From Oceaniglobus ichthyenteri (GTDB lineage: Bacteria > Pseudomonadota > Alphaproteobacteria > Rhodobacterales > Rhodobacteraceae), in NCBI RefSeq assembly GCF_003057885.1, contig NZ_QAGK01000001.1:372001-436000 (forward strand): a DNA stretch of 64,000 bases. Reading direction: 5' to 3'. Under the pieces are notes generated by a model. It saw only the letters and a list, made by a program, of their open reading frames with translations, did not search any database and was not told the origin of the DNA. The stretch's first letter is position 1, and every line of letters starts with the position of its first letter. The position numbers and the translations under genes are program-made. Positions 13,836-59,974 of the stretch are shown here, piece after piece.

Positions 13836-13891
13836 GGTAAATGGTGGGTCGTGAGAGGCTCGAACTCCCGACATCTTCGGTGTAAACGAAG
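13836..13891. repeat. left attachment site (56-bp copy of tRNA-Val 3' part)
   Basis: Identical to 59893-59948. It contains the CCA end, T arm, variable region and the 3' half through the anticodon stem-loop of tRNA-Val, reading leftward. The next base differs (t here, c at 59949), which ends the identity. This copy is the original host 3' end; the prophage supplied the copy that completes the tRNA at the right end. Confidence 0.93.
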
Positions 13892-44600: not shown

Positions 44601-45406
44601 TGGGTTCCTCCGGCGATTTTCTTCCAACGGTCCATTTTCTGTGCCCGGTCGTCTGGCCGAGCGGGACGCTGTCCGCCTTGGTTTGGCTGCATCGGTCCCG
44701 CCGCCAACTGGGCAGAGAGATTGCGCATCACGCCGTCCAGCGCCTTCGGCCCGTTTGGCGGCTCGTCATGCCTCGCCCTGCTTTGCTTGGCGGCATCCAC
44801 GATGTTGAGGCATGGCAGATTGAGGTCGCGTCGCCATCGTCCGACGTGGATCGTTGCGGCAGGCGGCATCCAGTGTGTCGGCACCCGGTCACGGATGCCC
44901 ACGGCGGCCATGACCTCGGAAAGCAATCGATCATCGTCCCACGAACTCGGATCGTCTCGCGCCTCGCGCGCACTGCTACTACTATTCTGGCTTCTGGCTT
45001 CTGGCTTCTGGGCTTTATCCTCGGGGTTAACCCCCAAATCGTCACTTCCCCTTGTTTTTAAGGATGGGTTGCCACCCATTCGACCATTTGACTTGTCTCG
45101 TTCGGCCTTTTTAAAGTCCTCAATCATGCGCGAAGAAGCAACGAATGAACCCTGAACGGTGGTCGAAACGCCAGCATCGGCCAATTCGGCCATGAGTTTT
45201 CGGGTGGTTCTGGGGTTGTCCCCGAGAATGTCAGCAAGCTCTTTTTCGGTCATAGGCCGCCCCTGCACTTCGAGCCTCCCGGTGCCGGATTGGTGCATCA
45301 GACAAAGCATATCGATCCACAGAGAGCGGGCTGCTCTGGATACCAGTCTGAGCTTGTGCTCCCCCAGCCAGTCGTTGGTGTAGAATTTCAGCCAAGGGTC
45401 AGCCAA
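44597..45406 (-). CDS. phage replication initiator-like protein (lambda O-type), TTG start
   Basis: 269 residues. N-terminus WLKFYTNDWLGEHKLRLVSR, then ARSLWIDMLCLMHQSGTGRL and MTEKELADILGDNPRTTRKL, is a winged-helix pattern of phage O/DUF1376-like initiators. A low-complexity linker (NPEDKAQKPEARSQNSSSS) precedes a C-terminal part that could load the helicase encoded just upstream. The TTG at 45406 has GGGAGG six bases before it and overlaps the helicase stop. The linker DNA has four tandem 7-bp repeats, a candidate origin. Confidence 0.75.
   Translation of the reverse strand: MADPWLKFYTNDWLGEHKLRLVSRAARSLWIDMLCLMHQSGTGRLEVQGRPMTEKELADILGDNPRTTRKLMAELADAGVSTTVQGSFVASSRMIEDFKKAERDKSNGRMGGNPSLKTRGSDDLGVNPEDKAQKPEARSQNSSSSAREARDDPSSWDDDRLLSEVMAAVGIRDRVPTHWMPPAATIHVGRWRRDLNLPCLNIVDAAKQSRARHDEPPNGPKALDGVMRNLSAQLAAGPMQPNQGGQRPARPDDRAQKMDRWKKIAGGTQ
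44985..45012. repeat. four tandem heptamers TTCTGGC inside the initiator gene
   Basis: Three exact copies and a fourth ending in G. They lie in the linker-coding part, next to an A/T-containing stretch (ctactactatt). Lambda also has its origin iterons inside the O gene linker. A unit of seven bases is out of phase with codons, so a change in copy number would shift the reading frame. Confidence 0.7.
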
Positions 45407-46805
45407 GGTGCGCCTCCCAGATCCGGTTCAGCGCCACGTTACAGTACACATTTGCGGTGCCGATTGGCCCCTGACGCTGCTTGGCCACGATGATTTCAAG
45501 CCGGTTTCTTGCGTGCTCCATGGCGTTTTGCCAGGCCTCAAATGCGTCGTTGTCATGCATCTCCGGCTGCTCACGCTCAAGGTAATATTCGTCGCGATAA
45601 CAAAACATGACGGCATCAGCGTCTTGCTCCAACTGCCCGGATTCGCGCAGATCAGAGAGCATCGGGCGCTTGTCATCGCGGGATTCCAAGGCGCGGGAAA
45701 GCTGTGAAAGGGCCAAGATCGGGACGTTCAATTGCCCAGCCAATGCCTTTAGGGACCGGCTGATTTCTGAAACCTCATCATATCTGGATCGCGCACCCTG
45801 AACCTTTAGAAGTTGCGCATAGTCAACGATCAGCAGTCCCATTTCGTTACCCATGATGCGCTTCGCCTGCTTGGCGCCAGCGGCCATTGCGCCAATATCC
45901 GCATATTGCCTTGACAGGAATTGGATCGGCAGGCTGGCGACCTCCTTTGCGGATTCCGCCAGTGCCTCCATCTGCCAGTCAGTCAGGTCACCACCTCGAA
46001 TGTCGCGATAGCTGATCGCCTTGCTGATGCGCGCGGTGCCCTCGGACAGCGCGCGCAGGGCCATGGCTTCGGGGTTCATCTCCAATGAACAGATCACTAC
46101 GCCATGTCCCGCCCTGGCGGCATTCAGGGCCACGTTGAGGGCCACACTCGTCTTACCCATGGATGGCCTGCCACCCAGCAAGATCAGTTCGCCAGGGTAC
46201 AGGCCCGTCACCATATTATCGAGCGACTCGATCCCCGTCTGAACGAACGTGCCAGTGTCGCCGTTTCTCGCTGCCATGACTTGCTCAAGAGCGGTGGAAA
46301 CGGCGGATGTCATGGAGATTGGTCGGGGCGCGTTACCGGTACCCTCGATCGCCATCAGCGCCCCCTCAAGGCGCGCTGCAATAACATCGGCGGGCTGATC
46401 GCTGGCCATCGTTGCGGATGTGGCGGTTCGCAGCGCGTCCATCAGAAGCCGCCGCGCGCGCGTTTCAGCCAGAACGCGGCAATAATGCTGCATGTGGCTG
46501 CTGGCGCTTGTAGCACCGGCAATCCGCATCAGGTATCCCGCCCCGCCCAGCTCGCTCAATGGCTCGTAGGCCCGCGCCCACTCGGCCAGTGTCGAAGGAC
46601 TGGCAAGAATGCCGTTTCTGTCCATGCTTCGGATCTTGGAATAGATCGCTTTGTGGACAGCATCGTGGAACAGGTTCTCACCGCCATCTGCCTCAATGGT
46701 CGGCAGTCCATCAGTTGCCAACAGCAGCGCGCCAAGCACCTGCTGTTCGCATTCGACATCATGCGGGACATAATCCATTGGGATTATCTGTGCTGTTTCA
46801 CCCAT
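45399..46805 (-). CDS. replicative DNA helicase, DnaB family
   Basis: 468 residues. The N-terminal DnaB domain begins VPHDVECEQQVLGALLLA. The RecA-like motor has LILLGGRPSMGKTSVALNVA (Walker A, about 211-220), ICSLEMNPEAMALR (H1a), GLLIVDYAQLL (Walker B) and SQLSRALESRDDKRPMLSDL, all hallmark DnaB segments, and ends with HARNRLEIIVAKQRQGPIG. It is a full-length phage helicase loaded at the origin, probably by the initiator coded immediately downstream. Confidence 0.93.
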   Translation of the reverse strand: MGETAQIIPMDYVPHDVECEQQVLGALLLATDGLPTIEADGGENLFHDAVHKAIYSKIRSMDRNGILASPSTLAEWARAYEPLSELGGAGYLMRIAGATSASSHMQHYCRVLAETRARRLLMDALRTATSATMASDQPADVIAARLEGALMAIEGTGNAPRPISMTSAVSTALEQVMAARNGDTGTFVQTGIESLDNMVTGLYPGELILLGGRPSMGKTSVALNVALNAARAGHGVVICSLEMNPEAMALRALSEGTARISKAISYRDIRGGDLTDWQMEALAESAKEVASLPIQFLSRQYADIGAMAAGAKQAKRIMGNEMGLLIVDYAQLLKVQGARSRYDEVSEISRSLKALAGQLNVPILALSQLSRALESRDDKRPMLSDLRESGQLEQDADAVMFCYRDEYYLEREQPEMHDNDAFEAWQNAMEHARNRLEIIVAKQRQGPIGTANVYCNVALNRIWEAHLG

Positions 46806-46923
46806 GGCCGCTTGCCTGCTTTGCAGCGGCTTTTTCTGCCAGCTTTAGGGCGATTTCACCTATGCTTCGCCATTCCCCGTTGACGCACTGCGGCTCGCTC
46901 TCGTATTGTTTGGCCTCAGCCAT
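46798..46923 (-). CDS. small phage protein between RusA and helicase genes
   Basis: 41 residues: MAEAKQYESEPQCVNGEWRS then IGEIALKLAEKAAAKQASGHG. It overlaps the RusA stop at its 5' end and the helicase start at its 3' end, so it is part of the coupled chain. Mostly helical; function unknown. Confidence 0.6.
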   Translation of the reverse strand: MAEAKQYESEPQCVNGEWRSIGEIALKLAEKAAAKQASGHG

Positions 46924-47401
46924 TGCCTGATCCTCCGTTGATCGGGTTGCGGTTTGAGGCCGTGGGTGTTTGCCCACCTGCGGCCTCGTCTATCTCAATA
47001 CCCTGCACCGTCACGCAAGTGCCTGCGACAGGCCCCCAGACCTTCACAACGCGCGCGTCGGCCACTTGGCTGTCGTCGGACCATGCAATGCGGTTGAGCC
47101 CGTCTTTTACGGCTTTCAAGCAGTTGTCGCCGTCGGGCTTTTGGGTGTGATATCGCCCCAGGAATGCAGCGGTCTTTTTCTTTGACCAGCTTTTTGCAGG
47201 GACGAACGTTGCGGTGACGACAATCTTCACCGGACCCGATAATGGCGCCGGGAAATACGGCAGTGCGATCTGCCCAACCTGCCGTTCAAAGCTGACGGTT
47301 TCTTTGGGCGTGTACATGCGGGCAAATCCGCAGCGGGCGGTTGCTCTCGCCCGCTGCTTGCCAAACGGTTTGCCGGGAATTGTGAAACGGATGGTGGTCA
47401 T
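46916..47401 (-). CDS. rusA: RusA family Holliday junction resolvase
   Basis: 161 residues. Starts TTIRFTIPGKPFGKQRARAT; the family core HTQKPDGDNCLKAVKDGLNR followed by SDDSQVADARVVKVWG supplies the acidic catalytic residues. RusA dimers resolve four-way junctions made during phage replication and recombination. Placed next to the helicase as in lambdoid phages. Confidence 0.92.
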   Translation of the reverse strand: MTTIRFTIPGKPFGKQRARATARCGFARMYTPKETVSFERQVGQIALPYFPAPLSGPVKIVVTATFVPAKSWSKKKTAAFLGRYHTQKPDGDNCLKAVKDGLNRIAWSDDSQVADARVVKVWGPVAGTCVTVQGIEIDEAAGGQTPTASNRNPINGGSGNG

Positions 47402-47408
47402 GGCGATC

Positions 47409-48083
47409 TCAGATCAGTTCTGGCTGGCGATAATCGACCCGATCAAGCCAACGAAACGCAGGCTCGCCGACCCAATCCTTGCGCCAGACGAACCATGCGT
47501 TCCGTTGCGGTGGACTGCCCTCGCCTGTGAAGTCCAGTTTCCAGCGCATCAGATAGCTGTACGAAAACGGTTGATTGTCGAGAATTGCGCCGAGGCCATT
47601 AGCCTTTGCCGCTGGCCAGTCCCAAGACAGCAAAAGGGCGAGGTAATCCCATCCTGGCATGTCAAGGGTGTGCCGCAGCCATCTGCCGTGGCCGTCGCGG
47701 GCATTGACCAGATTGTACGGCGGGTTGGTGATGATTGCCCGGCACCGTGATCGGCGGCATGTGAAATAATCTGCGGTCCAGCTATCAGGGCAGCCACGGT
47801 CGATCAGATCAGATGCACAACACGGGATACCTGCAGAGCGGATTTCACGCACCAGCGCGCCGTCACCACAGGCGGGTTCCCAGACGGACCCGCATTCGCG
47901 TATCCTTTCACCATCGGCAGCGAGCAAAGCGCGGATAGCTTCTGGCTGCCCGGTTGGGTAAAAGTCTGCGTCACGCCGTGCTGCATTTGGCCGATCTTGC
48001 CGGGGCAACAACAGTCCCAACGGCACCCCAAGGTCAGGCTTCAATCTTGTGGCGCGAAACAATGATTTTGCAGATGAAGTCAC
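47409..48083 (-). CDS. phage DNA adenine methyltransferase
   Basis: 224 residues. Motif X-like DFYPTGQPEAIRALL (40-54), motif I WEPACGDGALV (68-78) and motif IV ITNPPYN (118-124) form a compact N6-adenine methyltransferase of the phage Dam type. The C-terminal half (ALLLSWDWPAAKANG, WKLDFTGEGSPPQ) is the target-binding part. No cognate nuclease lies nearby, so it is an orphan enzyme that probably protects phage DNA or adjusts host regulation. The start overlaps the upstream small gene. Confidence 0.85.
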   Translation of the reverse strand: MTSSAKSLFRATRLKPDLGVPLGLLLPRQDRPNAARRDADFYPTGQPEAIRALLAADGERIRECGSVWEPACGDGALVREIRSAGIPCCASDLIDRGCPDSWTADYFTCRRSRCRAIITNPPYNLVNARDGHGRWLRHTLDMPGWDYLALLLSWDWPAAKANGLGAILDNQPFSYSYLMRWKLDFTGEGSPPQRNAWFVWRKDWVGEPAFRWLDRVDYRQPELI

Positions 48084-49210: not shown

Positions 49211-49357
49211 TCATTTGCGCGCCTCAATAGTTTTGCTCAAAAACTTTTGTGTCGGGACCAGCCGTGAGGCGATCCACTCAAGGCTGATCCCTGCCCCGGC
49301 CAGCAGCGCGATAAGCGCCGTGACCGTCCAAAGCGCAGGATATGCAAGCGCCTTCAT
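49211..49357 (-). CDS. small membrane protein in the early leftward operon
   Basis: 48 residues: MKALAYPALWTVTALIALLA then GAGISLEWIASRLVPTQKFL and a basic tail. One hydrophobic helix spans most of the first 25 residues. The ATG at 49357 overlaps the preceding stop as ATGA. Possibly an inner-membrane host-takeover protein; unknown. Confidence 0.62.
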   Translation of the reverse strand: MKALAYPALWTVTALIALLAGAGISLEWIASRLVPTQKFLSKTIEARK

Positions 49358-49668
49358 TTTCCACCTGCCATGTGGTCAAGGTACACCTGCCCGTGCATCA
49401 TGGCGGCAAGGGTGGTTGTGTCGCCGGATGGCGCGTTCAAGCCCTGCCACCAGTTGTTCGCAGTCTGGTATCGCACCCCGTAAACGACGCTGACCTCTTC
49501 GGCGTTGCGGTAGTTTGCCTGTAGGAATTGCGCGAACCGATGCTTGAAAAACATCTTGAAACCGCGCGGGTCCAAAACTTTGGTATGGGACTTTTGCATA
49601 ACTGATACTCCATGTTTCTGGTGTGATGCAGAAACTTGAAAATCAGCGTGTGTGGGGGCGGCGGTCAT
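49354..49668 (-). CDS. HTH-containing early regulator candidate
   Basis: 104 residues. The C-terminal ~70 residues (FAQFLQANYRNAEEVSVVYG, then VRYQTANNWWQGLNAPSGD) form a helix-turn-helix like those of phage regulators in the CII/Cro neighbourhood. The start at 49668 overlaps the Cro-like stop; an internal ATG at residue 24 is an alternative. Being second in the leftward operon makes a lysis-lysogeny role plausible. Confidence 0.65.
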   Translation of the reverse strand: MTAAPTHADFQVSASHQKHGVSVMQKSHTKVLDPRGFKMFFKHRFAQFLQANYRNAEEVSVVYGVRYQTANNWWQGLNAPSGDTTTLAAMMHGQVYLDHMAGGK

Positions 49669-49919
49669 TGCGCCGCCCCTTCTTTTGTGCGCTCGGCAGG
49701 TGGGACATGACGCGGGCCAAAGATATCAGGCCTGAGCACATGCCGGGATACCTGCCCTTCAGTGCTGTCGTCGAGCTTCTTGGCCATATCGGCGGTGATG
49801 CTCTTAGCCTTCAGCAGATAGGAGATTTGTTGCTGCGAACAGCCAATCGCCTCAGCCAGCTTTGCCTGCGAGCCGTGGTGCCTAATGGCTCGTTCAACTT
49901 GTGTGCGGATCATGTTCAT
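49665..49919 (-). CDS. Cro-like repressor, first gene of the leftward operon
   Basis: 84 residues. MNMIRTQVERAIRHHGSQAK then LAEAIGCSQQQISYLLKAKS is a lambda-Cro/YdaS-type helix-turn-helix. The C-terminal 35 residues are Pro/Arg-rich. No ribosome site precedes the ATG at 49919, and the predicted transcription start falls on that codon, so translation may be leaderless. Divergent from the CI-like gene across a region with two operators. Confidence 0.8.
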   Translation of the reverse strand: MNMIRTQVERAIRHHGSQAKLAEAIGCSQQQISYLLKAKSITADMAKKLDDSTEGQVSRHVLRPDIFGPRHVPPAERTKEGAAQ

Positions 49920-49967
49920 ACAAGTTTACTAGTATAATGCTGGGGAGCAGTCAACTAGCAAACTTGT
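49920..49967. promoter_or_regulatory. immunity operators O1 (49920-49933) and O2 (49954-49967) with leftward and rightward promoters
   Basis: O1 ACAAGTTTACTAGT and O2, read on the other strand, ACAAGTTTGCTAGT differ at one of 14 bases. They lie back to back between the cro-like and repressor genes. Leftward promoter: TTGACT at 49949-49954, 17 bases, TAGTAA at 49926-49931; O1 covers its -10. Rightward promoter: TTGTCT at 49964-49969, 18 bases, TGGTAT at 49988-49993; O2 covers its -35. The arrangement fits a bistable switch. Confidence 0.75.
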
Positions 49968-50005
49968 CTGTCAGAAAACAAGGTGGCTGGTATGGTGTGT
50001 AGGAA

Positions 50006-50347
50006 ATGACGCTCGCTCAAAACACCAGACGAATCCGCCGCGAACGCGGCATGTCACAAGCTGCGCTGGCTGAGGCTGCGGGCGTGAAGCAACAGCTAAT
50101 TTCTCAAATTGAACGCGGCGTGAATACCACGACTAAAAAGCTTCCTGAGATTGCTCGCGCGCTGGGGTGCAGAGTTCACGACCTAGAGCCAAATTATCGG
50201 ACCGATGGGAGCGAGGACCAAGCCGAGCTGCTGAGCAAATTTAATCAGATTCTGAACGGCGAGAATGAAGCGCAATTGCAGATGCTAGACGACTATTTTG
50301 ACTTCCTTCTTTCAAAGTATCGCCAGCCTGATGATAGCAACGAATGA
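50006..50347 (+). CDS. CI-like XRE repressor (short type)
   Basis: 113 residues. MTLAQNTRRIRRERGMSQAA then LAEAAGVKQQLISQIERGVN is a standard XRE helix-turn-helix at the very N-terminus. The remainder (QAELLSKFNQILNGENEAQL, DYFDFLLSKYRQPDDSNE) is a helical dimerisation tail. No LexA-type peptidase domain is present, so induction would not follow RecA-stimulated self-cleavage. It should bind the ACWAGT-type dyads on both sides. Confidence 0.85.
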   Translation: MTLAQNTRRIRRERGMSQAALAEAAGVKQQLISQIERGVNTTTKKLPEIARALGCRVHDLEPNYRTDGSEDQAELLSKFNQILNGENEAQLQMLDDYFDFLLSKYRQPDDSNE

Positions 50348-50530
50348 ACGATTCAAGTTCCTCGATATCTAAAAGACTTGCCTTTTTTAACATCTCTTTC
50401 CGCATGCCGCGCCCCGCCCTGTTCTCAATTTGTTCACGTTACGTCAATGGCGCGGATTCGGTCAAGGATTGGCAAGGCGCGACTTAAACAAACTAATTTC
50501 TTGGAAATTTTAACCGCAAAGGAAACCAAA

Positions 50531-50803
50531 ATGGCCTCTATCGATGACCAAGTGAAGGATTTGCAGGCACAAATCCGACGCCAGGAAGAAGCAATTGATA
50601 TACTGATGAAATCAATTCAGGATCTTGCAATCTACAGCCACTTTCAGCACGGCGGCCAACCTGACGGAGAATGGGCACGCGAAACCGAAAAACGCCCGAC
50701 ACCAAAATCAGTCTGGAACCGAGCGTATCTGGCGTATTTCAAGGTCCGTGTTTCTGGCGGTTATCCTCCAAAGCAGATTGTCGCCGCTGCGGAACCGGAA
50801 TGA
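50531..50803 (+). CDS. small coiled-coil protein downstream of the repressor
   Basis: 90 residues from MASIDDQVKDLQAQIRRQEE with AAAGGAAACC upstream; a longer in-frame extension lacks coding character. The first 40 residues are a coiled coil; the rest (KSVWNRAYLAYFKVRVSGGY) is unassigned. It is on the repressor's strand, 183 bases downstream, and so may be expressed in the lysogen, for example as an exclusion or repressor-modulating protein. Confidence 0.6.
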   Translation: MASIDDQVKDLQAQIRRQEEAIDILMKSIQDLAIYSHFQHGGQPDGEWARETEKRPTPKSVWNRAYLAYFKVRVSGGYPPKQIVAAAEPE

Positions 50804-51049
50804 TTATTCGATACTGACCAGACGATAGGTCAGCCGAGACCCCTTGTATCTGATATCAACCCTGTCCCCGGCTGCCTCAACGGTGCAATCAGGATCATCA
50901 TCGACCCGCACCACGCTGCGCGCGATGCTTGGCATACTGTCCGCGTGGCCTTGGCGCGCCACAGCGGAGTCCATCGCATGGCGTGCCACTGGGCCGATTT
51001 CGTCGGCAAGCGCCTGAAGGCCCGCGAGCAATGCAAAATTTGACGGCAT
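50804..51049 (-). CDS. small phage protein of the immunity region
   Basis: 81 residues from MPSNFALLAGLQALADEIGP; GAAAGG precedes the ATG at 51049. Helical N-half, beta C-half (VEAAGDRVDIRYKGSRLTYR). It points toward the repressor block, opposite to its neighbours. No family recognised. Confidence 0.6.
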   Translation of the reverse strand: MPSNFALLAGLQALADEIGPVARHAMDSAVARQGHADSMPSIARSVVRVDDDPDCTVEAAGDRVDIRYKGSRLTYRLVSIE

Positions 51050-51074
51050 TCTTTCACCTTTCAATAGAGTAGAG

Positions 51075-51100
51075 ACCCGGCCCCGCGCCGGGTTTTTCTT
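51075..51100 (+). terminator. rightward terminator between repressor block and right early operon
   Basis: Stem CCCGGC/GCCGGG (51076-51081 and 51087-51092) with a 5-base loop, then TTTTTCTTT. It would stop rightward transcripts from the repressor unit before the right early promoter, insulating lytic genes in the lysogen. Confidence 0.8.
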
Positions 51101-51130
51101 TGCCTACTGTAGCAGGTGATTCTGTTAATT

Positions 51131-51177
51131 ACTAGATTTCTTGTTTTCCCACTTGACCGGCTCACTAGTTTACTTGT
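51131..51177 (+). promoter_or_regulatory. right early operator-promoter: O3 (51131-51144), O4 (51164-51177)
   Basis: O3 ACTAGATTTCTTGT and O4 ACTAGTTTACTTGT match the dyad of O1/O2 (ACTAG-N4-CTTGT core). A TTGACC at 51153-51158 lies between them, with a GTACAC at 17-base spacing, so repressor at O4 would block the -10 region. The first gene starts at 51228 behind GGAGAG. This is the pL-like control point for the recombination and integration genes. Confidence 0.7.
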
Positions 51178-51227
51178 ACACCTTCCCTATCACCGGCCTC
51201 ACGGCCACCGGATAGGAGAGACGCAAG

Positions 51228-51524
51228 ATGAATATCCCCTCCACGCTTTTCATGGTCTGGACAGACTTTGGCCCAGCCATCGGCCAGGGTGTCGAAGCAG
51301 ACCCGGCCCCCATGTTTGATGATGCCGTTGATCAATACGCCGAGGCCCGCCGCGATGATCGCGCCGCCATCATCTGGCGCATCGACACCCCGCACAATGG
51401 TCAGGCTGGCATGGCAACAGATGTAACCGCCGATGCCGAAGATTGCATCCGCCGCCGCTGCGCCGCCAGCTGCACCGATCTGCCCGATTGGCTGTTTGAT
51501 CGCCACCAGATCGCAGCCGAATGA
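51228..51524 (+). CDS. first gene of the right early operon, unknown function
   Basis: 98 residues, acidic: MNIPSTLFMVWTDFGPAIGQ, then DDAVDQYAEARRDDRAAIIW and DAEDCIRRRCAASCTDLPDW. GGAGAG ribosome site. Its first-in-operon position and acidic nature suggest an early host-interaction or DNA-mimic protein, but no family is recognised. Confidence 0.7.
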   Translation: MNIPSTLFMVWTDFGPAIGQGVEADPAPMFDDAVDQYAEARRDDRAAIIWRIDTPHNGQAGMATDVTADAEDCIRRRCAASCTDLPDWLFDRHQIAAE

Positions 51525-51865
51525 CCCCCGAAATAACTGCCACGCGCCAATCCCAAAACGGCGCGCACCTTCCGGGGGCGGTGAAGTCCTCCCCACTGTC
51601 CCCGGACTTTTCAGATCACACCCTCGCCAGCCAGCACGGCGCGCCTTGGGGCCACATCGACACAATCCGCGAAATACTGCGGGCGAAGGAGAAGAGCGCA
51701 ATGACCTATCATGAGTATCTTAAGGCGGTGAACGAAGCTGCCTACGCCGCATTGCGCCGGGGCTTGAGTGACGCCCGCGATGTCAGCGCCTTACGCCAGA
51801 TTGCCGCCGCAACCGACGCGCTTGTCGATCAAAACGCGCCCCGTGCTCTGGGGAATGCACAGTGA
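51521..51865 (+). CDS. early phage protein of unknown function
   Basis: 114 residues with ATGA overlap at its start. A low-complexity first part (QNGAHLPGAVKSSPLSPDFS) and a helical C-terminal half (TYHEYLKAVNEAAYAALRRG). An internal ATG (MTYHEYLKAVNEA) could be the real start of the compact helical protein. Function unknown. Confidence 0.6.
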   Translation: MTPEITATRQSQNGAHLPGAVKSSPLSPDFSDHTLASQHGAPWGHIDTIREILRAKEKSAMTYHEYLKAVNEAAYAALRRGLSDARDVSALRQIAAATDALVDQNAPRALGNAQ

Positions 51866-52089
51866 TCCGCCCCGACGAAAACCTTGAGGCGTTCCACCTC
51901 TATGACAGCGCGCGCGAAATCCCAGCGCCCGACGACACGCCCTATCCACCGGCCATCTGCCTGTTGATCTGGATCACCATCACCATCGCCGTTTGGCTGG
52001 CCATGGTTGTCGCTTGGAAGGCCGCCGGTTGGATTTTCGGCAAGGCCATCGCCCAGGCTGCATTCGATGCCGCCGCATGCGCATTTTGA
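51862..52089 (+). CDS. small membrane protein, GTG start
   Basis: 75 residues. GTGA overlap with the preceding stop. After a polar 30-residue front, a strong membrane helix (PAICLLIWITITIAVWLAMV) and a second Ala-rich segment follow. Unknown role; small early membrane proteins can affect superinfection or host division. Confidence 0.65.
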   Translation: MIRPDENLEAFHLYDSAREIPAPDDTPYPPAICLLIWITITIAVWLAMVVAWKAAGWIFGKAIAQAAFDAAACAF

Positions 52090-52102
52090 GAGGATAACGA
52101 CA

Positions 52103-53248
52103 ATGAATGATATGACCGTTACCGAACCGAATACGGCAATCGCCCTGCCTGCCCCCACGCAACTTGCGGCGGTGCTGACCAACAAGGCCGAAACCAACGA
52201 CCTGTTGGCTCGCATGATCGCCGATGGTGACGCCGAGTTCGCAAGCCTATCCCCCGATACGGCGAAGGGTCGAAAGGCGCTGATTTCCCTCGCCAACAAG
52301 GCCAGCACAACGCGCGCCGAAATTATCAGGCAGGCGAAGGCCCTGACCGAAGAATGGCGCACCAAGACCGCCGCAGTAAACGCGGGAAAAAAGGCTTTTG
52401 AGGATGGTCTTGCCGAGGCGCGCGACAAGTGGCGGAAACCCGTCACAGATTGGGAGGTGGCCGAGGAATCGCGCGTTGAGATGCACCAGCGAAACCTCAA
52501 TTCCTTTGACTTGGGGAGGGTGGATGGATCGTCTTCATCCGAAGATATTCGCGCCTGGGTCGCCCACGTCGAGGCCCTGACCACCGGCCCGGAATGGGAT
52601 GAATTTCAGCCGATAGCCGAGGCCCGCAAGGAAGCAGCGCTGGCGCACTATCGCACGTTGCTGGCAGCCGCCGTGAAGGCCGAAGCCGACGCCGCCGAAC
52701 TGGCCCGCCTGCGGGCCGAAGCTGATGCGCGCGCCCGGAAGGATGCCGAAGAAGCCGCCGCGAAAGCAGAGGCCGACCGGCTGGCTGCTGAGAAGGTCAA
52801 GCAGGAACGTATTGCAGCTGAAAAGATCGAGGCCGACCGCATTGCGGCCGAACGCGCGGAGGTAAAGCGGATCGCAGATGAAAAGGCCGAGGCTGCTCGC
52901 CGTGAGCAGCACGAGCGAGACAAGGCCGAAGCCGCAGAGCGCGCCCGGGTCGAAGCGCAGCAGCAGGCCGAACACGACCGGATTGCCGCAGATGAGCGGC
53001 ACAAGAAGGAACTGGCCGAGGCGAAGGCCCGCGAAGAAGCGGCAGCGCAGCGGGAACGTGACCGGCTCGAAATCGAACGCAGGGCCGAAGCTGATGCGCG
53101 CGCCAAACGTGAAGCCGATCAGGCGCACCGTGCGCGGATCAGGAACGAAATCGCAGCGGGCCTGAAAGCGCTCGAAGCCGGGAATTGGTTTGCACTGGCC
53201 GACGCCCTGATCGACGGCAAGGTGCCACATTGTGAGGTGAGAATATGA
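52103..53248 (+). CDS. long coiled-coil protein of the recombination operon
   Basis: 381 residues from MNDMTVTEPNTAIALPAPTQ; GAGAGGA ribosome site. Residues ~1-175 form a helical head (TRAEIIRQAKALTEEWRTKT). Residues ~185-350 are an Ala/Glu/Lys/Arg coiled coil (AKAEADRLAAEKVKQERIAA). It resembles DUF1351-like and similar proteins encoded just before phage exonuclease/annealing genes. It overlaps the exonuclease start by four bases, so it is probably a partner of that recombination machinery. Confidence 0.7.
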   Translation: MNDMTVTEPNTAIALPAPTQLAAVLTNKAETNDLLARMIADGDAEFASLSPDTAKGRKALISLANKASTTRAEIIRQAKALTEEWRTKTAAVNAGKKAFEDGLAEARDKWRKPVTDWEVAEESRVEMHQRNLNSFDLGRVDGSSSSEDIRAWVAHVEALTTGPEWDEFQPIAEARKEAALAHYRTLLAAAVKAEADAAELARLRAEADARARKDAEEAAAKAEADRLAAEKVKQERIAAEKIEADRIAAERAEVKRIADEKAEAARREQHERDKAEAAERARVEAQQQAEHDRIAADERHKKELAEAKAREEAAAQRERDRLEIERRAEADARAKREADQAHRARIRNEIAAGLKALEAGNWFALADALIDGKVPHCEVRI

Positions 53249-54201
53249 GCGACTTCCTGAAATCCGGCGTCCACCAAATTGACGCTGACCGATACCACGC
53301 TGATCCGTGTCAGGCCCCCAGCCTATCCAGCACCGTCGCCAAGATACTGCTGGCCCAATCGCCGCTTCACGCATGGACCGCATCGCCACGGCTAAACCCG
53401 GATTGGGAACCGAAAGACAGCAAGACGTTTGATATTGGTAGGGCCGCACACCGGGCGACCCTGGGCGCTGGATCAGACTTCTGCGCCATCCCAGACGGCA
53501 TTCTCGCCAGCAATGGCGCGGCATCGACCAAGGCTGCAAAGGACTTCATCGCCGAAGCGCGTGACGCTGGCCTGACGCCATTGAAGTCCGGAGAGGTGGT
53601 GCAGATCGACGCCATGAAGGCCAAGATCGCTGACAAGCTGACCGCGCTACAGATCGACCTGGACCCCGCTCACTCGGAAATCGTCGCGTTAGCACAGATG
53701 GATAGCATCTGGTGCCGCGCCATGATCGACAATGTGCCGGCCGATCCGCGTGCGCCATTGTACGACTTCAAAACCACCACCGACGCCAGCCCGGACGCCG
53801 CCATGCGCGCCGTGATGAATTACGGATACGATATTCAGGCTGCGCACTATCTCGACACATGGAAGGCCGCGACCGGCGATGATCGCCTGTTCCGGTTTAT
53901 CTTCCAGGAAAAAGAGGCCCCGTTTGAGGTCTCCGTGATCGAGGTCGGCCCGGACTCACTGGCGATGGCTCGCAAGAAGATCGCCCGAGCGCGCGCGATG
54001 TGGGCAAATTGCCTGCACGCCGACGACTGGCCCGGCTATCCGCTTGGGGTTCATCGGATCGAACTGCCCGAGTTCTTCCACGCCAAATGGTTGGAGCGCG
54101 AAAGCGTTGATGCCGATTACAAGCGCCGCACCGGCAGGGATGTGCTCGACGCCGCCCGCCAATGGCAATCCCCAGAAACCTATCGCATCGCAGGAGAGTG
54201 A
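53245..54201 (+). CDS. RecE-like exonuclease (exodeoxyribonuclease VIII/PD-(D/E)XK, DUF3799)
   Basis: 318 residues. LSSTVAKILLAQSPLHAWTA is the family's N-terminal phrase. The nuclease core has CRAMIDNVPADP (Asp162), LYDFKTTTDASP (Asp174, Lys176) and GYDIQAAHYLDTW with the Gln/Tyr of motif III. It degrades one strand of duplex ends so an annealing or strand-exchange protein can act. The Sak4-like ATPase lies two genes later, completing a phage recombination module. Confidence 0.88.
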   Translation: MSDFLKSGVHQIDADRYHADPCQAPSLSSTVAKILLAQSPLHAWTASPRLNPDWEPKDSKTFDIGRAAHRATLGAGSDFCAIPDGILASNGAASTKAAKDFIAEARDAGLTPLKSGEVVQIDAMKAKIADKLTALQIDLDPAHSEIVALAQMDSIWCRAMIDNVPADPRAPLYDFKTTTDASPDAAMRAVMNYGYDIQAAHYLDTWKAATGDDRLFRFIFQEKEAPFEVSVIEVGPDSLAMARKKIARARAMWANCLHADDWPGYPLGVHRIELPEFFHAKWLERESVDADYKRRTGRDVLDAARQWQSPETYRIAGE

Positions 54202-54203
54202 CC

Positions 54204-54431
54204 ATGACACAGTTTGTAGCCGTGAGGTTCAACCCGTGGGATTATCGGTCCTACACCTATTGCCATGACGGAGAGCCAGTTGCCCCTGGCGACATGGTGG
54301 AGGTCAACACCCCGAAGGAAGGACCGAAGACTGTGGTGGTTGAGTCGGTGACCAACACCGCCCCGGCGTTCCAGTGCAAGCCCGTTTCGCGAGTGATCAA
54401 GCGCACCGCCGATGACGAGGTGACGGAATGA
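54204..54431 (+). CDS. small phage protein between exonuclease and Sak4-like genes
   Basis: 75 residues from MTQFVAVRFNPWDYRSYTYC, beta-rich (HDGEPVAPGDMVEVNTPKEG). The pattern (V-x-F-x-P and G-D-x-V-x-V) looks like a small SH3-like barrel. ATGA overlap with the next gene. Possibly an accessory DNA-binding protein. Confidence 0.65.
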   Translation: MTQFVAVRFNPWDYRSYTYCHDGEPVAPGDMVEVNTPKEGPKTVVVESVTNTAPAFQCKPVSRVIKRTADDEVTE

Positions 54432-55528
54432 GCGCCATGATCCGCTTCATCCCCGTCGCCGAACTGAACGACCCCCTGACGCTGGCCATCGGCCTGTCTG
54501 GTGGGTCGGGCACCGGCAAGACCTATTCCGCCCTGCTGATGGCGCGGGGCATCGCAGAGGTTACGACTGGCAAGACCGGCGCACCCATCGGTTATGTGGA
54601 CACGGAAAACCGTCGCGCCCTGCATTACAAGCAAGCGTTCCCAGAAATGTGCCATTTCGACATGAAAGCCGTGGACGACGCCGGGAAAATGATCGGCTTT
54701 GGCCCGGAGCGGTGGATTGAAGTGATCGACGCCGCAGAGGCCGCAAATCTGCCAGTGGTGATCTTGGACAGCTTTTCTCACGCTTGGGAGGGCGTTGGCG
54801 GGGTTCTGGACCTGCAAGCGCAGGTGTTGGACCGGCTGACCGGCGGTGACGACAGCAAGAAAAACCAGCGCAGCCAGTTGGCGTGGGCAGAGGTAAAGCC
54901 TCGCTATCGCCGCCTGATCGACCGGATTGTACGCGCCAAATGCTCGATGATTATCTGCACCCGCGCAAAGCCAGTCATGCAGGAGAAATCTGCCAAGACA
55001 GGGTGGAAGGAAGTCAACGCCCGCGCCACAAAAACGCGCCGTCAGGATGTGCCGTGGGATCCGGCGAGCGATGGCGACCTGATGTTTGAAATGACCGCAA
55101 TGGTGATCCTCGACCCATCAGCCCCTGGCTGCCCGGTGCATCAAATCAAAGTCGCCGATCAGTTCAAAGGTCTGCTCGATGCCCGGCGCCCCATGGGCGT
55201 GGAAACAGGGCGCGCCATGGCCGAATGGGCGAAGAGCCAAGGCAGCGGGCAACAGGATAAGGCAGTTCTCGACTCGGCTCGCGAGGCGGCGCGTGGCGGC
55301 AAGGAGGCTTTCACCACCTGGTGGAACGAACACAAAGAGGATCGCGCTTTGGTCAAGACGATACTGGCCGAATGCCAGGATTTGGCGGCGAACGCGGATG
55401 CAGCGAAGGACGAAAGCGAGAGCGACGATCCATTTGCAAACACGGATGACGCCCCACGCCTCACCCCCGAACAAGAAGCCGAAATCCAGCGCGAAATTGA
55501 CGAACGGAACGCGAGGGAGTCGGCGTGA
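54428..55528 (+). CDS. Sak4-like RecA-fold ATPase (AAA_24), recombination mediator
   Basis: 366 residues. Walker A LSGGSGTGKTYSALLMARG (GGSGTGKT at 25-32), Walker B LPVVILDSFSHAWEG, and RAKCSMIICTRAKPV as the sensor strand. C-terminal acidic tail (DAAKDESESDDPFANTDDA). Sak4 proteins are phage single-strand annealing/Rad51-like recombinases working with an exonuclease, here the RecE-like enzyme. The acidic tail resembles SSB- or RecA-type regulatory tails. Confidence 0.85.
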   Translation: MSAMIRFIPVAELNDPLTLAIGLSGGSGTGKTYSALLMARGIAEVTTGKTGAPIGYVDTENRRALHYKQAFPEMCHFDMKAVDDAGKMIGFGPERWIEVIDAAEAANLPVVILDSFSHAWEGVGGVLDLQAQVLDRLTGGDDSKKNQRSQLAWAEVKPRYRRLIDRIVRAKCSMIICTRAKPVMQEKSAKTGWKEVNARATKTRRQDVPWDPASDGDLMFEMTAMVILDPSAPGCPVHQIKVADQFKGLLDARRPMGVETGRAMAEWAKSQGSGQQDKAVLDSAREAARGGKEAFTTWWNEHKEDRALVKTILAECQDLAANADAAKDESESDDPFANTDDAPRLTPEQEAEIQREIDERNARESA

Positions 55529-56082
55529 CCCTGCGCCCGAATGGGACGCTGGTTTTCAAGTGGAACGAGCATGATATCAGAGTTTCCGAAATCCTCTCCC
55601 TGACGGATCAGAAGCCTCTTTTCGGCAGTCGGTCGGGGAAGAACGCAAAATCACACTGGATCGTATTCATGAAACCCGACTTCGATCGGCAGCAAATGGA
55701 CAGAAAGAGGATACCCTCCGATGAGCGAACACGCCCGCATGGTGCAGGATTTCGAAACGTCAGAGAGCCACGCCCACGATCCCGAGGGCCGCTTGCCGCA
55801 TGGATCAGGCATTGTGATCGCGCTGATCGCCAGCATTCCGATACTGCTATTTGTCGGCGGCTTTATCTGGCGTGTGGTGGTGTGATGGCCGAAATTACCG
55901 ACATCACCCGCGAAATGAAACACGCCTGCGCCCTGCGCGAATTGCGCATGCGGCGCAGCACATATCCGAGGTGGGTGCGCGCCAAGAAAATGCGCCAATC
56001 CGAAGCCGACCGCGAAATCGCCGTCATGAAGGCCATCGCTGATGATTACGCCGCGCCGGATCTGTTGGGCGGGGTGGAGTAA
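55525..56082 (+). CDS. possible fused reading frame spanning two or three small genes
   Basis: An open frame of 185 codons begins with a GTG overlapping the Sak4-like stop. The first ~65 residues (MTLRPNGTLVFKWNEHDIRV, SEILSLTDQKPLFGSRSGKN) look like real protein. The next ~55 residues look like the out-of-frame shadow of the small membrane gene at 55721. The last 65 are a separate small gene with its own start at 55885. Either the first gene lost its stop through a small indel near 55720, or the three overlap naturally. Treat the joined product as doubtful. Confidence 0.3.
   Translation: MTLRPNGTLVFKWNEHDIRVSEILSLTDQKPLFGSRSGKNAKSHWIVFMKPDFDRQQMDRKRIPSDERTRPHGAGFRNVREPRPRSRGPLAAWIRHCDRADRQHSDTAICRRLYLACGGVMAEITDITREMKHACALRELRMRRSTYPRWVRAKKMRQSEADREIAVMKAIADDYAAPDLLGGVE
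55721..55885 (+). CDS. small membrane protein overlapping the frame at 55525
   Basis: 54 residues: MSEHARMVQDFETSESHAHD then a membrane helix GSGIVIALIASIPILLFVGG and a short C-terminus. Its ATG follows a CCTCCG stretch without a strong ribosome site, and its stop overlaps the next start as TGATG. The clear transmembrane helix supports it as the coding phase in this stretch. Confidence 0.55.
   Translation: MSEHARMVQDFETSESHAHDPEGRLPHGSGIVIALIASIPILLFVGGFIWRVVV
55885..56082 (+). CDS. small basic phage protein
   Basis: 65 residues: MAEITDITREMKHACALREL then RMRRSTYPRWVRAKKMRQSE and an acidic tail. The phrase Y-P-x-W-V-x-x-x-x-M/K is common in small phage proteins encoded among early genes. 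Coupled at both ends (TGATG and TAATG). Function unknown. Confidence 0.65.
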   Translation: MAEITDITREMKHACALRELRMRRSTYPRWVRAKKMRQSEADREIAVMKAIADDYAAPDLLGGVE

Positions 56083-57638
56083 TGTTCGATGCAGCCCCAG
56101 AAACCGAACTGCCCATGATTATCGACAGCTTTGCCGGTGGCGGTGGGGCCAGCACTGGAATCGAACTGGCGCTTGGGCGCAGCCCCGACGTGGCCATCAA
56201 CCACAACGCCGCCGCGCTTGCACTGCATGCGGTCAATCACCCGGAAACGCTGCACCTCGACAGCAATATCTGGGATGTTGCGCCGCTGGATGTCACGAAG
56301 GGGCGACACGTCGGCCTTTTGTGGGCCAGCCCCGATTGCAAGCATTTCTCCAAAGCCAAAGGCGGCGCGCCGAAAGATCGCAACATTCGGGATCTGGCGT
56401 GGGTTGTGGTCGATTGGGCTGAACAGGTGCGACCCGATGTCATCCTGATGGAAAACGTCGAGGAATTTTTGACATGGGGCCCACTCGGCGAAGACGGGCA
56501 ACCATTGAAGGAGTTTTCGGGAATGACATTTGAACTCTGGGCTAAGCGCCTACGCCGCGCAGGATATCGGGTGCAGTGGCGCGAGCTGCGCGCATGTGAT
56601 TATGGCGCACCCACGATCCGCAAACGGTTCTTCATGGTTGCGCGCCGTGACGGCCGCCCGATTTCGTGGCCAAAACCAACCCACGGCGATCCGAAGTCGC
56701 CCGCGGTAAAGCGCGGCCACCGGTTGCCCTGGCGGACGGCAGCAGAATGCATTGATTGGTCACTGCCCTGCCCGTCTATTTTCGATACCGGCCCCCAGAT
56801 CATGGAAAAGCACGGCCTGCGCGCCGTCCGTCCGCTGGCGAAGAACACCATGGCACGCGTGGCGAGGGGAATGAAAAGATACGTTCTGGACAGCGCAGAT
56901 CCGTTCATCGTGAACATCGCCAACTCCAAAACAACAACGGCAGGCGGACAGCATCACGCATTGGGCGCACCGCTGCTGGCGACCATGCGCAACAGTCAAA
57001 AGCCTTGGCAGGGATGCGATGAACCCACCCACACCATAACGGCGGGCGGCGCCGGGCTGACAACCATCGCCGCATTCATCGCACAGCACCACACCGGAGC
57101 GACCGGGCATGACGCGCGCGACCCGCTTTCGACCGTCGCAGCCACGGGCAGCCATCAAACGCCGATCGCCGCATGGTTCGCGAAATACTATGGCACCGGT
57201 GATGGCGCGCCGACGGGCGACCCGATGCATACCGTGACAGTCAAAGATCGCATGGGACACATGCAAGCCGCACTGTCGGCACCGCCCTTCACCAAGGATC
57301 ACGCCACCCGGGCCCGCGATGTGGCCGACTTCATGCGTGCGCACGAAGCGTGGGATGATCGCGAATTTGTCACGATCAACATTCAGGGCGCGACCTTTGT
57401 GATTGTCGATATCGGGATGCGCATGCTCACGCCACGCGAACTGTTTCACGCCCAAGGGTTTCCTGCCGATTATGTGATCGAGGGGCACTGGACAGAACGC
57501 GACGGAGAATACACCTGGACCCAATTTCCGAAGAACGTCCAGGTTAGCTGCTGTGGAAACAGCGTCTGCCCACCCCTCGCCGAAGCACTGGTGCGGGCAA
57601 ACTGTAAGCACCTGATGAAAGAAAGGATCGCAGCATGA
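56082..57638 (+). CDS. phage DNA (cytosine-5) methyltransferase
   Basis: 518 residues. Motif I IIDSFAGGGGASTGIELA (17-26), motif IV WASPDCKHFSKAKGG with nucleophile Cys86 (S-P-D-C replacing the usual P-P-C-Q), motif VI LMENVEEF (ENV 124-126), motif VIII-like TIRKRFFMVARR (178-189). A long variable region (~200-420) contains repeated DPxHTVT-like units, probably the target-recognition domain. The C-terminal NVQVSCCGNSVCPPLAEALV is motif X. Orphan enzyme in the early operon, likely for protection of phage DNA from restriction. Confidence 0.88.
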   Translation: MFDAAPETELPMIIDSFAGGGGASTGIELALGRSPDVAINHNAAALALHAVNHPETLHLDSNIWDVAPLDVTKGRHVGLLWASPDCKHFSKAKGGAPKDRNIRDLAWVVVDWAEQVRPDVILMENVEEFLTWGPLGEDGQPLKEFSGMTFELWAKRLRRAGYRVQWRELRACDYGAPTIRKRFFMVARRDGRPISWPKPTHGDPKSPAVKRGHRLPWRTAAECIDWSLPCPSIFDTGPQIMEKHGLRAVRPLAKNTMARVARGMKRYVLDSADPFIVNIANSKTTTAGGQHHALGAPLLATMRNSQKPWQGCDEPTHTITAGGAGLTTIAAFIAQHHTGATGHDARDPLSTVAATGSHQTPIAAWFAKYYGTGDGAPTGDPMHTVTVKDRMGHMQAALSAPPFTKDHATRARDVADFMRAHEAWDDREFVTINIQGATFVIVDIGMRMLTPRELFHAQGFPADYVIEGHWTERDGEYTWTQFPKNVQVSCCGNSVCPPLAEALVRANCKHLMKERIAA

Positions 57639-57877
57639 GTGACCCAATGAAAGAAATGGAACGATACCATGACGCAACACGAACCATAATTGACGGGCGT
57701 GATCCGGTCACAGATATGGCCGCTGTAATGGTCACATTAGAGGGAGCGGTGGCCGCAACGCTCTTGATGGTTATGAACGGGGATCACCGCAAAGCCGTCG
57801 GGATGCTGAATGAAGGGCTTGTTCCGGGCGTCGAGCACAGGATTGCCTTATCGGCATCAAGGACAGGTGCAGCATGA
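57635..57877 (+). CDS. small early phage protein
   Basis: 80 residues, helical with Met-rich segments (TDMAAVMVTLEGAVAATLLM). ATGA overlaps at both ends. No family known. Confidence 0.62.
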   Translation: MSDPMKEMERYHDATRTIIDGRDPVTDMAAVMVTLEGAVAATLLMVMNGDHRKAVGMLNEGLVPGVEHRIALSASRTGAA

Positions 57878-58107
57878 CTGACACCCTAGCCGACGCCCTG
57901 CCCCGCGAGATCGCCCGCGTCAGCGCGAAACGCGACAGATGGCGCGATATGGCCGCTGAACATCCCGCGATTGCAATGGGCATGAATATGACAATCGCAA
58001 TCATGCAGGCCGAAATTGATCACGCGGTGCGCGCCTGCGCCATCGGCGACGTGGTTGAAATGATGGCCGCGCTCGACTCTTTACGGGGGTACGACGACAA
58101 TGACTGA
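57874..58107 (+). CDS. small early phage protein
   Basis: 77 residues, amphipathic helices (LPREIARVSAKRDRWRDMAA) and an acidic end (RGYDDND). Coupled to neighbours by ATGA and an 8-base overlap. No family known. Confidence 0.62.
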   Translation: MTDTLADALPREIARVSAKRDRWRDMAAEHPAIAMGMNMTIAIMQAEIDHAVRACAIGDVVEMMAALDSLRGYDDND

Positions 58108-58468
58108 CCACCCACGTCGCATCCAGCTTTCCCGCGTCAAAGGCTGGCGCAAACCTGACGATGCTGTTGTTGTGGCACGCCCGACCAGATGGGGTAACCC
58201 GTTTGACTTCCGCGCGGCGGCAGAGGCGGGATATGGCGACGGACGCGCCGTCGCGGTTGATGCATTTAGGGGGTGGCTGCACGGCGAGGATTGGGGCTTA
58301 CCCACGAGTCAGACTCGCGTCAGCATGGCCGCCAAGAAAGTCGTCATCCTACGAAACTTAGCCGAACTGCGCGGCAAAGACCTGTGCTGTTGGTGCGCGC
58401 TGGATCAGCCGTGCCATGCAGATGTGTTGCTTGCGATCGCAAACCCGCCTGAAAGTGAAACCCCATGA
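58100..58468 (+). CDS. DUF4326 protein
   Basis: 122 residues. IQLSRVKGWRKPDDAVVVAR then PTRWGNPFDFR and GKDLCCWCALDQPCHADVLL are the DUF4326 signatures, with three Cys and a His in C-W-C-x5-P-C-H-A. Common in phages and genomic islands; the Cys/His set suggests metal binding. Biological role is not known. Confidence 0.85.
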   Translation: MTDHPRRIQLSRVKGWRKPDDAVVVARPTRWGNPFDFRAAAEAGYGDGRAVAVDAFRGWLHGEDWGLPTSQTRVSMAAKKVVILRNLAELRGKDLCCWCALDQPCHADVLLAIANPPESETP

Positions 58469-58734
58469 GCAACATCCAACACATCCACGTTGCGACAGCT
58501 GCGCAGGTGGCCGAAGCACCGCGCGTGATCGGGTATGTCAGCGCGGCAACCTTGGCACAGCTGCTGGACATCAGCGCAGGCACAGTGGCCGAATGGGTCA
58601 AACAGGGCCACCTGCCCCGCCCTATCAAGATCGGCGGATCGAACCGATGGAAATGGACAGAGATTGAAAAACGGTTCAGCACCGGGTCTAGTGAGCCGGT
58701 TGACCCAATCCTGAAAGCATCCCGTGGCGGCTGA
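58465..58734 (+). CDS. AlpA/MerR-like excisionase candidate
   Basis: 89 residues. IGYVSAATLAQLLDISAGTV followed by AEWVKQGHLPRPIKIGGSNR and WKWTEIEKRF is the winged-helix pattern of AlpA-type and Xis proteins. It directly precedes and overlaps the integrase gene by 11 bases, which is the usual place for an excisionase or recombination directionality factor. Role inferred from context. Confidence 0.8.
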   Translation: MSNIQHIHVATAAQVAEAPRVIGYVSAATLAQLLDISAGTVAEWVKQGHLPRPIKIGGSNRWKWTEIEKRFSTGSSEPVDPILKASRGG

Positions 58735-59884
58735 CCTGACCCTTGAACAATATGTGCAGCGCAAGCGGCGCGGGGCGCGCGAGTATTTTTACTTTCGCGT
58801 GGTGCGTCATGGCGTGGAAACTCGCCTCCCCTTGCCACATCCGTTCAGCGCCGATTATCGCGCGGCCTATGACGCGGCGCATGTGTCGGTTTTTGGCATC
58901 GCACCGAACGAATTTGAAAGCCCCACCGCGATCACCGCATTGATCCGTCAGCACAAAGACAGCGCGCGATATCACAACCTGCCCCGCCCATCGCGCCGGT
59001 TGCGCGATTATGCGCTGGATCTGATGATGGATCGCTGGGGCGCATTTGATGCCACGGCAATCCGCCCGGTGCATGTGCAGGCGCTGTATGACAGCTTGGC
59101 CGATCGGCCTGCCACCGCAAATCGCCGCCTTGATGATATCAGCGCCGTGTTTGGTTGGGGCCGCACGCGCGGCTTTGCCGATGTGAACCCCTGCGCCCGG
59201 ATCGAACGGGTGCAATCCACCGAATCGCGCGAACCGTGGCCCGATGATGCCCTGCGCACCCTGATCGATCAGGGCCAGCCGCATATCCTGCGACCGGCGC
59301 TGGTGGCCGCATACACCGGCCAACGGCGCGGCGATGTCCTGACGCAATTCGCCGATGCCCAGATCGATGGCGGGGTCTGGTATCTGAAACAGTCCAAGAC
59401 CAAAACCGAGGTGCCGGTGCCCCTGCACCCGGTGATCCTGGCAATTGCCGAAACCGAACGGGTTGCGCGCCGGGCCGCCGGCATAGTTTCGCCGCGCCGC
59501 CCCCTGTTACTCAATTCGCGCGGTGAACCTTGGACCGGATCGGGCTATGGCGCGTCCTGGCGCACCGAGTTGATCCGCCTGGGCTTGCGCCCGAACCGCA
59601 ATGACGAATATGCGGCCGATCAGTTTCAGCCGACGTTTCACGGGCTGCGCCACACCAGCGCCACTTTGATCGCCAACACAGTCGCCAGAAACCCCGATTT
59701 GTTTGGTGGAATCGCCCGCGTGAAATCAATGCTGGGCCACCTGACTGAGGCCATGGCCGAACACTATTCCAGGCGCGCTCAGGCGGAACATATGAACACC
59801 GAAACCATGCTGCTGTTACCCGAGATTGGGAACACCGCGCCCCAAATTGGGAACGCTAAAAACGCCGATTTCGCAAGTGACTGA
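58724..59884 (+). CDS. int: tyrosine recombinase integrase, GTG start
   Basis: 386 residues. Catalytic set: Arg201 (AAYTGQRRGDVL), Lys in SKTKTEVPVPL, His306/Arg309 (FHGLRHTSATL), His339 (MLGHL) and Tyr348 (AMAEHYSRRA). The N-terminal ~60 residues are the arm-binding type and ~85-160 the core-binding SAM-like domain. It ends 8 bases before the right 56-bp repeat, so integrase and attachment site move together. It integrates the prophage into the tRNA-Val 3' end. Confidence 0.93.
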   Translation: MAADLTLEQYVQRKRRGAREYFYFRVVRHGVETRLPLPHPFSADYRAAYDAAHVSVFGIAPNEFESPTAITALIRQHKDSARYHNLPRPSRRLRDYALDLMMDRWGAFDATAIRPVHVQALYDSLADRPATANRRLDDISAVFGWGRTRGFADVNPCARIERVQSTESREPWPDDALRTLIDQGQPHILRPALVAAYTGQRRGDVLTQFADAQIDGGVWYLKQSKTKTEVPVPLHPVILAIAETERVARRAAGIVSPRRPLLLNSRGEPWTGSGYGASWRTELIRLGLRPNRNDEYAADQFQPTFHGLRHTSATLIANTVARNPDLFGGIARVKSMLGHLTEAMAEHYSRRAQAEHMNTETMLLLPEIGNTAPQIGNAKNADFASD

Positions 59885-59892
59885 TTTCATTT

Positions 59893-59974
<82 letters not shown>

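Follow-up and report, generated by a model that had tools for sequence, protein, structure and literature searches.

A lambda/434-type immunity region with five operators and a predicted antisense LexA promoter in a prophage of Oceaniglobus ichthyenteri

Introduction

In the immunity region of phage lambda, OR2 is centred about -42 from PRM, the repressor CI makes octamers through its C-terminal domain, and OOP RNA, an antisense transcript that overlaps the 3' end of the switch gene cII, is under LexA control. Phage 434 (lambda imm434) is closest to the locus described here, since both have 14-bp operators with ACAA-type half-sites, a QQ....Q recognition helix, OR and OL arrays, a weaker OR3 and divergent cI and cro genes; ACAA-N6-TTGT sites were found in both OR and OL of 434. 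The two differ in that OR1 and OR2 are 22 bp apart in 434 and 34 bp apart here, that the 434 repressor carries a LexA-like S24 domain, which our repressor lacks, and that our Cro is YdaS-like. Moreover, in the 434 record each of the two genes is preceded by an annotated ribosome-binding site, whereas both switch mRNAs here are predicted to be leaderless or nearly so.

Other operator sequences are used by N15, phiKO2 and PY54, telomere phages whose prophages are linear plasmids (PMC4488713). PY54 has a single operator, unlike our locus, and its cI and cro mRNAs were both shown to be leaderless (PMC4488713). CP-933P, with PaaR2, YdaS and YdaT, resembles our locus in its short repressor without a peptidase motif, its YdaS protein as Cro and its OR and OL arrays, but differs in its operators, in the toxin-antitoxin operon that comes after the switch and in not being SOS-responsive; its paaR2 mRNA is leaderless (PMC8630535). 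For repressor C of Rhizobium phage 16-3, from an alphaproteobacterial host, the titles of two papers (PNAS 2002 and Nature 1987) given in PMC3694467 indicate a 434-like operator specificity. In Gifsy, a short non-cleavable repressor is inactivated via a LexA-controlled small protein (PMC3121763).

Here, we analyzed a 64,000-nucleotide stretch of the O. ichthyenteri genome (the window) that contains such a switch. The switch itself is of a familiar kind, and 434, N15/phiKO2, PY54, CP-933P and Rhizobium 16-3 are its known precedents. Its variant features are 434-like operators, the wide OR1-OR2 spacing and start codons adjoining operators. The part that would surprise a specialist is a predicted LexA promoter antisense to the repressor gene.

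Results

A prophage switch with three OR and two OL sites

A 56-bp repeat at a tRNA-Val gene marks the ends of a prophage of about 46 kb in the window (Table 1). A sequence-only reading of this DNA had placed four operators, at 49920, 49954, 51131 and 51164, in a lambda OR/OL layout, two of them at the cro/repressor divergence and two at the promoter of a recombination/integration operon. All four sequences are present at those positions, and genes for a RecE-like exonuclease, an AAA protein, a methyltransferase and an integrase do run rightward from OL. The four sites share a dyad as proposed, although its wording, ACWAGT-N2-ACTWGT, is better replaced by ACWAG-N4-CTWGT. An OR-like array lies at the divergence, but its count of two has to be raised to three by a weaker OR3.

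The pattern ACTAG-N4-CTTGT fits OR1, OR2, OL2 and OL1 on one strand or the other. It has four matches in the 3.9-Mb genome, all at these sites, against nine scattered matches of a reversed control pattern, and 150 third-order Markov simulations of the window composition gave 0 matches per 64 kb. Thus, the four sites are not chance matches. The paired sites are 34 bp apart in OR (OR1-OR2) and 33 bp apart in OL (OL2-OL1). OR3 ranked fifth when the window was scanned with a weight matrix made from relatives only, and a chance-looking site at 17859 scored almost equally, so it is the conserved position of OR3 that supports its assignment. Beyond OL2, a further upstream OL site was considered and rejected, having no common position among relatives. 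Judged by sequence, three OR and two OL sites in this layout are a lambda/434-type immunity region; the three-site OR is common to the window, lambda, 434 and N15. The position of CII/YdaT, immediately downstream of cro, is taken by a 104-aa protein (49354-49668, minus) with no confident family match.

Table 1. Features of the prophage and its immunity region (window coordinates)
Feature	Position	Strand	Remarks
attL-like 56-bp repeat	13836..13891	+	
DnaB-like helicase	45399-46805	-	
RusA	46916-47401	-	
DNA methyltransferase (PR arm)	47409-48083	-	
PR arm genes	45399..48083	-	leftward from OR with cro
Cro-like protein	49665..49919	-	84 aa, YdaS/Cro type
OR1	49920..49933	-	ACAAGTTTACTAGT at 49920 (plus), ACTAGTAAACTTGT on minus; holds predicted PR -10; adjoins cro start codon
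Predicted PR	49926..49954	-	-35 TTGACT (49954-49949), 17-bp spacer, -10 TAGTAA (49931-49926)
OR2	49954..49967	+	ACTAGCAAACTTGT; adjoins PR -35 with 1-base overlap; centre about -42.5 from predicted PRM start
OR3	49978..49991	+	ACAAGGTGGCTGGT; weaker; 24 bp from OR2; variant half-site CTGGT is extended -10 of PRM
Predicted PRM extended -10	49988..49996	+	TGGTATGGT
Repressor	50006..50347	+	113 aa; recognition helix of 434 type; lacks S24 peptidase domain
54-aa ORF	50241..50405	-	antisense to repressor gene, overlapping its 3' end; candidate antirepressor under SOS control
LexA box	50421..50435	-	GAACAAATTGAGAAC, GTTC-N7-GTTC form; 73 nt past repressor stop codon
Predicted SOS promoter antisense to repressor	50436..50465	-	-35 TTGACC (50465-50460), 18-bp spacer, -10 TAACGT (50441-50436)
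90-aa orphan ORF	50531..50803	+	downstream of repressor
Terminator-like hairpin	51079..51094	+	separates repressor side from PL
OL2 (distal)	51131..51144	+	ACTAGATTTCTTGT
Predicted PL	51153..51182	+	-35 TTGACC (51153-51158), 18-bp spacer, -10 TACACC (51177-51182)
OL1 (proximal)	51164..51177	+	ACTAGTTTACTTGT; within PL spacer; last T opens predicted -10
PL operon	51228..59884	+	small ORFs, then RecE-like exonuclease, AAA protein, DNA methyltransferase, integrase
RecE-like exonuclease	53245-54201	+	
AAA protein	54428-55528	+	
DNA methyltransferase (PL operon)	56082-57638	+	
Integrase	58724-59884	+	
attR-like 56-bp repeat	59893..59948	+	reaches into tRNA-Val (59899-59974, minus)

The layout is kept in related phages

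Searching 395 genomes of the family for the repressor protein, we found three relatives in other genera. Two of them, in two genera and with 55-57% identity, have two site pairs flanking the repressor, and the same sites are nearly unique to the repressor locus in those two genomes, one of which is Brevirhabdus pacifica. A peptide-pattern scan of the genome contig collection for the repressor gave no match. Pair scans of 2.9 million viral contigs yielded 19 non-redundant OR regions, less than 75% identical to each other; a scan with wider gaps gave new matches, at other gap lengths, that looked unrelated and were left out of the counts. These relatives were gathered by means of the operator motif, so agreement within the motif is in part circular and does not count as independent evidence. 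Spacing, OR3, start-codon positions and neighbouring genes are free of this circularity.

OR1 and OR2 are 34 bp apart in 17 of the 19 OR regions and 35 bp apart in the other two. OR3, for which no selection was made, lies at +24 from OR2 in 15 of the 19 and at +25 in one more, with CTGGT or TTGGT replacing CTTGT/CTAGT in one half-site; a clear OR3 was not found in three of the 19. Every relative whose sequence reaches far enough (17/17) has an OL array, at 0.8 to 2.8 kb from OR among those measured. The OL sites are 32-33 bp apart in four phages, window included, and 23-24 bp apart in most others. OR-like and OL-like arrays are thus kept in many relatives, which upholds the lambda layout read earlier from the window except for its incomplete two-site OR.

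Individual relatives have peculiarities of their own. One relative (L051:4975-5030) carries three OL operators rather than two, 20 and 22 bp apart, and the Brevirhabdus pacifica prophage (L010:3632-4855) encodes a RelA/SpoT-domain protein between OL and the repressor, whose reading frame starts inside the OL array and which is possibly a lysogen-expressed defence gene.

Predicted promoters overlap the operators, and start codons lie close by

In the direction of cro, the last T of OR2 opens a TTGAC; 17 bp on, TAG starts the -10 in OR1, and the cro start codon follows six bases further. For the repressor promoter, the changed half of OR3 gives an extended -10 (TGG TAnnnT), which puts OR2 in the place that it has in lambda. 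The combination GTTGAC-N15..17-site-ATG was found in 20 viral contigs, all 20 being loci already known to have an OR pair. The -10 boxes predicted for PR and PL match the consensus weakly, and a stricter scan for standard consensus promoters found none here. A plus-strand TATAAT at 49933-49938 was rejected as the PRM -10, as it is not conserved in relatives.

The cro start codon lies 0-4 nt past OR1 in 18 of the 19 relatives; in the window it begins at the base where the PR transcript is predicted to start. In the 15 relatives whose OR3 is at +24, the repressor ATG follows the first base of the PRM -10 by 12-15 nt. Relative to the predicted PRM start, the repressor start codon is none to one nt downstream in most relatives and 2-3 nt downstream in the window. 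From these distances, both switch mRNAs are predicted to be leaderless or nearly so, which we regard as probable; the window repressor may keep a leader of 2-3 nt.

Between the repressor and OL lies an 86-aa ORF (50804-51064, minus). A TGCTA element just beyond OL2 (51114-51106) is common to the window, the Brevirhabdus prophage and relative L011. A leftward promoter may use it as an extended -10, and OL2 would then overlap that promoter.

The repressor lacks the cleavable domain

No S24 peptidase domain was found in the 113-aa repressor or in those of L010 and L052, and none was detected in those of L040 and L049. The domain is present in the repressors of L011, L026, L046, L059 and L067, with a weak match in L069, and its absence sets the window repressor apart from most relatives. 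Phages with cleavable and with non-cleavable repressors share nearly the same operators. Without an S24 domain, RecA-stimulated self-cleavage, the induction route of lambda, is unavailable here; the lambdoid-type switches of CP-933P and Gifsy likewise lack the domain. The 113-aa protein also has no counterpart of the C-terminal domain by which lambda CI octamerises, and the OR-OL distance is not constant among relatives; both points weigh against the putative looping between OR and OL. However, PaaR2 octamerises despite its short length (PMC8630535), so looping may still occur.

A predicted LexA promoter points into the repressor gene

Just past the repressor gene, the minus strand reads TTGACC-N18-TAACGT-GAACAAATTGAGAAC, aimed into that gene. 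In the host, lexA (two boxes) and recA are also closely preceded by GTTC-N7-GTTC boxes, so the prophage box has the form of the host LexA box. It is found at +463 to +479 from OR2 in the window, in Brevirhabdus and in L232, all of which have short repressors; no LexA box was found at this place in L052, the fourth short-repressor relative of this operator type.

The full promoter pattern has 11 matches in the viral contig set. Nine of them have an 18-bp spacer, and each of these nine is found 24-130 nt downstream of a short HTH gene; the HTH genes belong to several unrelated kinds. The other two matches, which have a 17-bp spacer, are not placed in this way. The genome contig collection gave four matches, namely the known Brevirhabdus prophage and three in distant bacteria. 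The open-access literature that we searched contained no description of a LexA promoter aimed at a repressor gene, which does not prove that none exists. In the viral contigs L174, L179, L182, L194 and L196, which have S24-type repressors, a strong LexA box also follows the repressor at a distance of about 320 nt, but the TTGAC-N18 promoter is missing.

The antisense transcript may encode a small antirepressor

For each antisense LexA promoter, a start codon lies 7-20 nt past the box and begins an ORF of 53-78 codons, which runs antisense to the final part of the repressor gene. Between the close pair L188 and L245, differences at codon positions 1, 2 and 3 number 0, 1 and 7 inside the overlap with the repressor gene, where similarity may be a by-product of that overlap, and 3, 0 and 6 outside it, so the evidence from outside the overlap is nine differences in one pair. 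This pattern suggests that the antisense ORF is coding. The promoter probably makes an SOS-induced antisense RNA and/or a small antirepressor, and both the Gifsy kind of antirepressor and the OOP kind of antisense RNA fit. As in Gifsy (PMC3121763), a non-cleavable short repressor goes together with a LexA-controlled small product, here a LexA box before a small, putatively coding ORF. As with lambda OOP, the transcript would overlap the 3' end of a switch gene, but OOP targets cII rather than the repressor and has no link to the loss of a cleavable domain.

The promoter might instead work only by antisense RNA, or by collision with PRM, and encode no protein. The antisense ORFs are short and diverse, transcription would run head-on into the repressor gene, and OOP acting on cII is a model for RNA-only action. 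With a start codon and a run of sense codons behind every box, and with the L188/L245 differences mostly at third codon positions, we give this reading a considerable chance, though one clearly below even. It is unlikely that SOS induction works by way of the 90-aa gene on the right, with a rightward promoter under the control of the LexA box. The box does lie upstream of this gene, which has a ribosome-binding-site-like sequence, but the 90-aa gene is itself an orphan, relatives have different genes beyond the box, and the -35/-10 around the box are conserved leftward with the exact 18-bp spacer; the 90-aa ORF was thus rejected as an antirepressor, being an orphan with the promoter pointing the opposite way.

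Taken by itself, the GTTC-N7-GTTC form occurs near chance frequency in the genome (105 matches vs 93 for the control), so it is the complete promoter, together with its conserved location, that supports the LexA claim. The same frequency would allow a chance box in a prophage unresponsive to DNA damage, and PaaR2 of CP-933P is not SOS-responsive (PMC8630535). We consider this quite improbable, as three short-repressor phages of this operator type, and six more whose repressors are of other kinds, have box and promoter at the same place. A damage-responsive promoter antisense to the repressor gene thus remains the preferred reading.

The repressor helix is of the 434 type

By sequence, the repressor matches the structures of both the repressor and the Cro protein of 434 (E about 1e-5 to 4e-6), and the glutamines of QQ....Q are preserved; QQL[IV]S[QR] is kept in all 18 relatives with a readable repressor. 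Compared with the 434 type, the 14-bp operators of the window have one ACAA half per site, the other half usually being ACTA. The repressor of Paracoccus phage Pthi1 has the helix QS....K, and no such operator site occurs in that phage within one mismatch. We infer that the 113-aa repressor binds these operators. An AlphaFold2 model of the repressor built from two sequences was too poor (mean pLDDT 50) and was discarded. A reading in which the sites are bound solely by the YdaS-type Cro-like protein, or by some other regulator, and the 113-aa protein has its targets elsewhere is very improbable. In its favour, the recognition helix of the Cro-like protein also reads QQQIS, and repressors and their Cro-type partners bind shared operators. 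Against it, the 434-type helix of the repressor reads ACAA half-sites and is kept in all relatives with these operators, and OR2 and OR3 are placed relative to PRM exactly as lambda repressor sites.

Discussion

The locus as a whole is best explained, with good confidence, as a lambda-like prophage immunity region with five operators that probably senses the SOS state via an antisense LexA promoter. Sequence comparison supplied the sites, their spacing and conservation, the promoter geometry, the absence of the S24 domain, and the LexA promoter with its association with short repressors; binding, leaderless translation, autoactivation and the action of the antisense product are deduced from these. 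The 113-aa repressor, and probably also the Cro-like protein, would bind the five related 14-bp operators. Repressor on OR1 and OR2 would shut PR, and on OL1 and OL2 it would shut PL. From OR2 it would probably help its own promoter, as in lambda, and OR3, lying over PRM, may serve Cro or negative feedback. The comparison with Rhizobium phage 16-3 covered operator specificity, and the operator sites of its repressor C themselves are reportedly of the 434-like kind.

As the repressor has no RecA-cleavable domain, damage is probably sensed via the LexA promoter. Upon DNA damage, this promoter would fire antisense into the repressor gene, and the transcript and/or its protein of about 50 aa would remove the repressor. 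More tentatively, with a likelihood approaching but not reaching even, the arrangement may be a portable module in which short non-cleavable repressors of several unrelated HTH families are combined with a stereotyped LexA promoter, TTGAC-N19-NNNNGT-GAACNNNNTGAGAAC, located close behind the 3' end of their genes and directed against them, and with an opposite-strand antirepressor of 50-78 aa that replaces the lost cleavable domain.

A lambda-type switch is now given for temperate phages of Rhodobacteraceae-like alphaproteobacteria, and its operator sequences allow cross-immunity to be predicted. If the proposed role of the LexA promoter is true, these phages swap a RecA-cleavable repressor domain for a LexA-controlled antisense gene.
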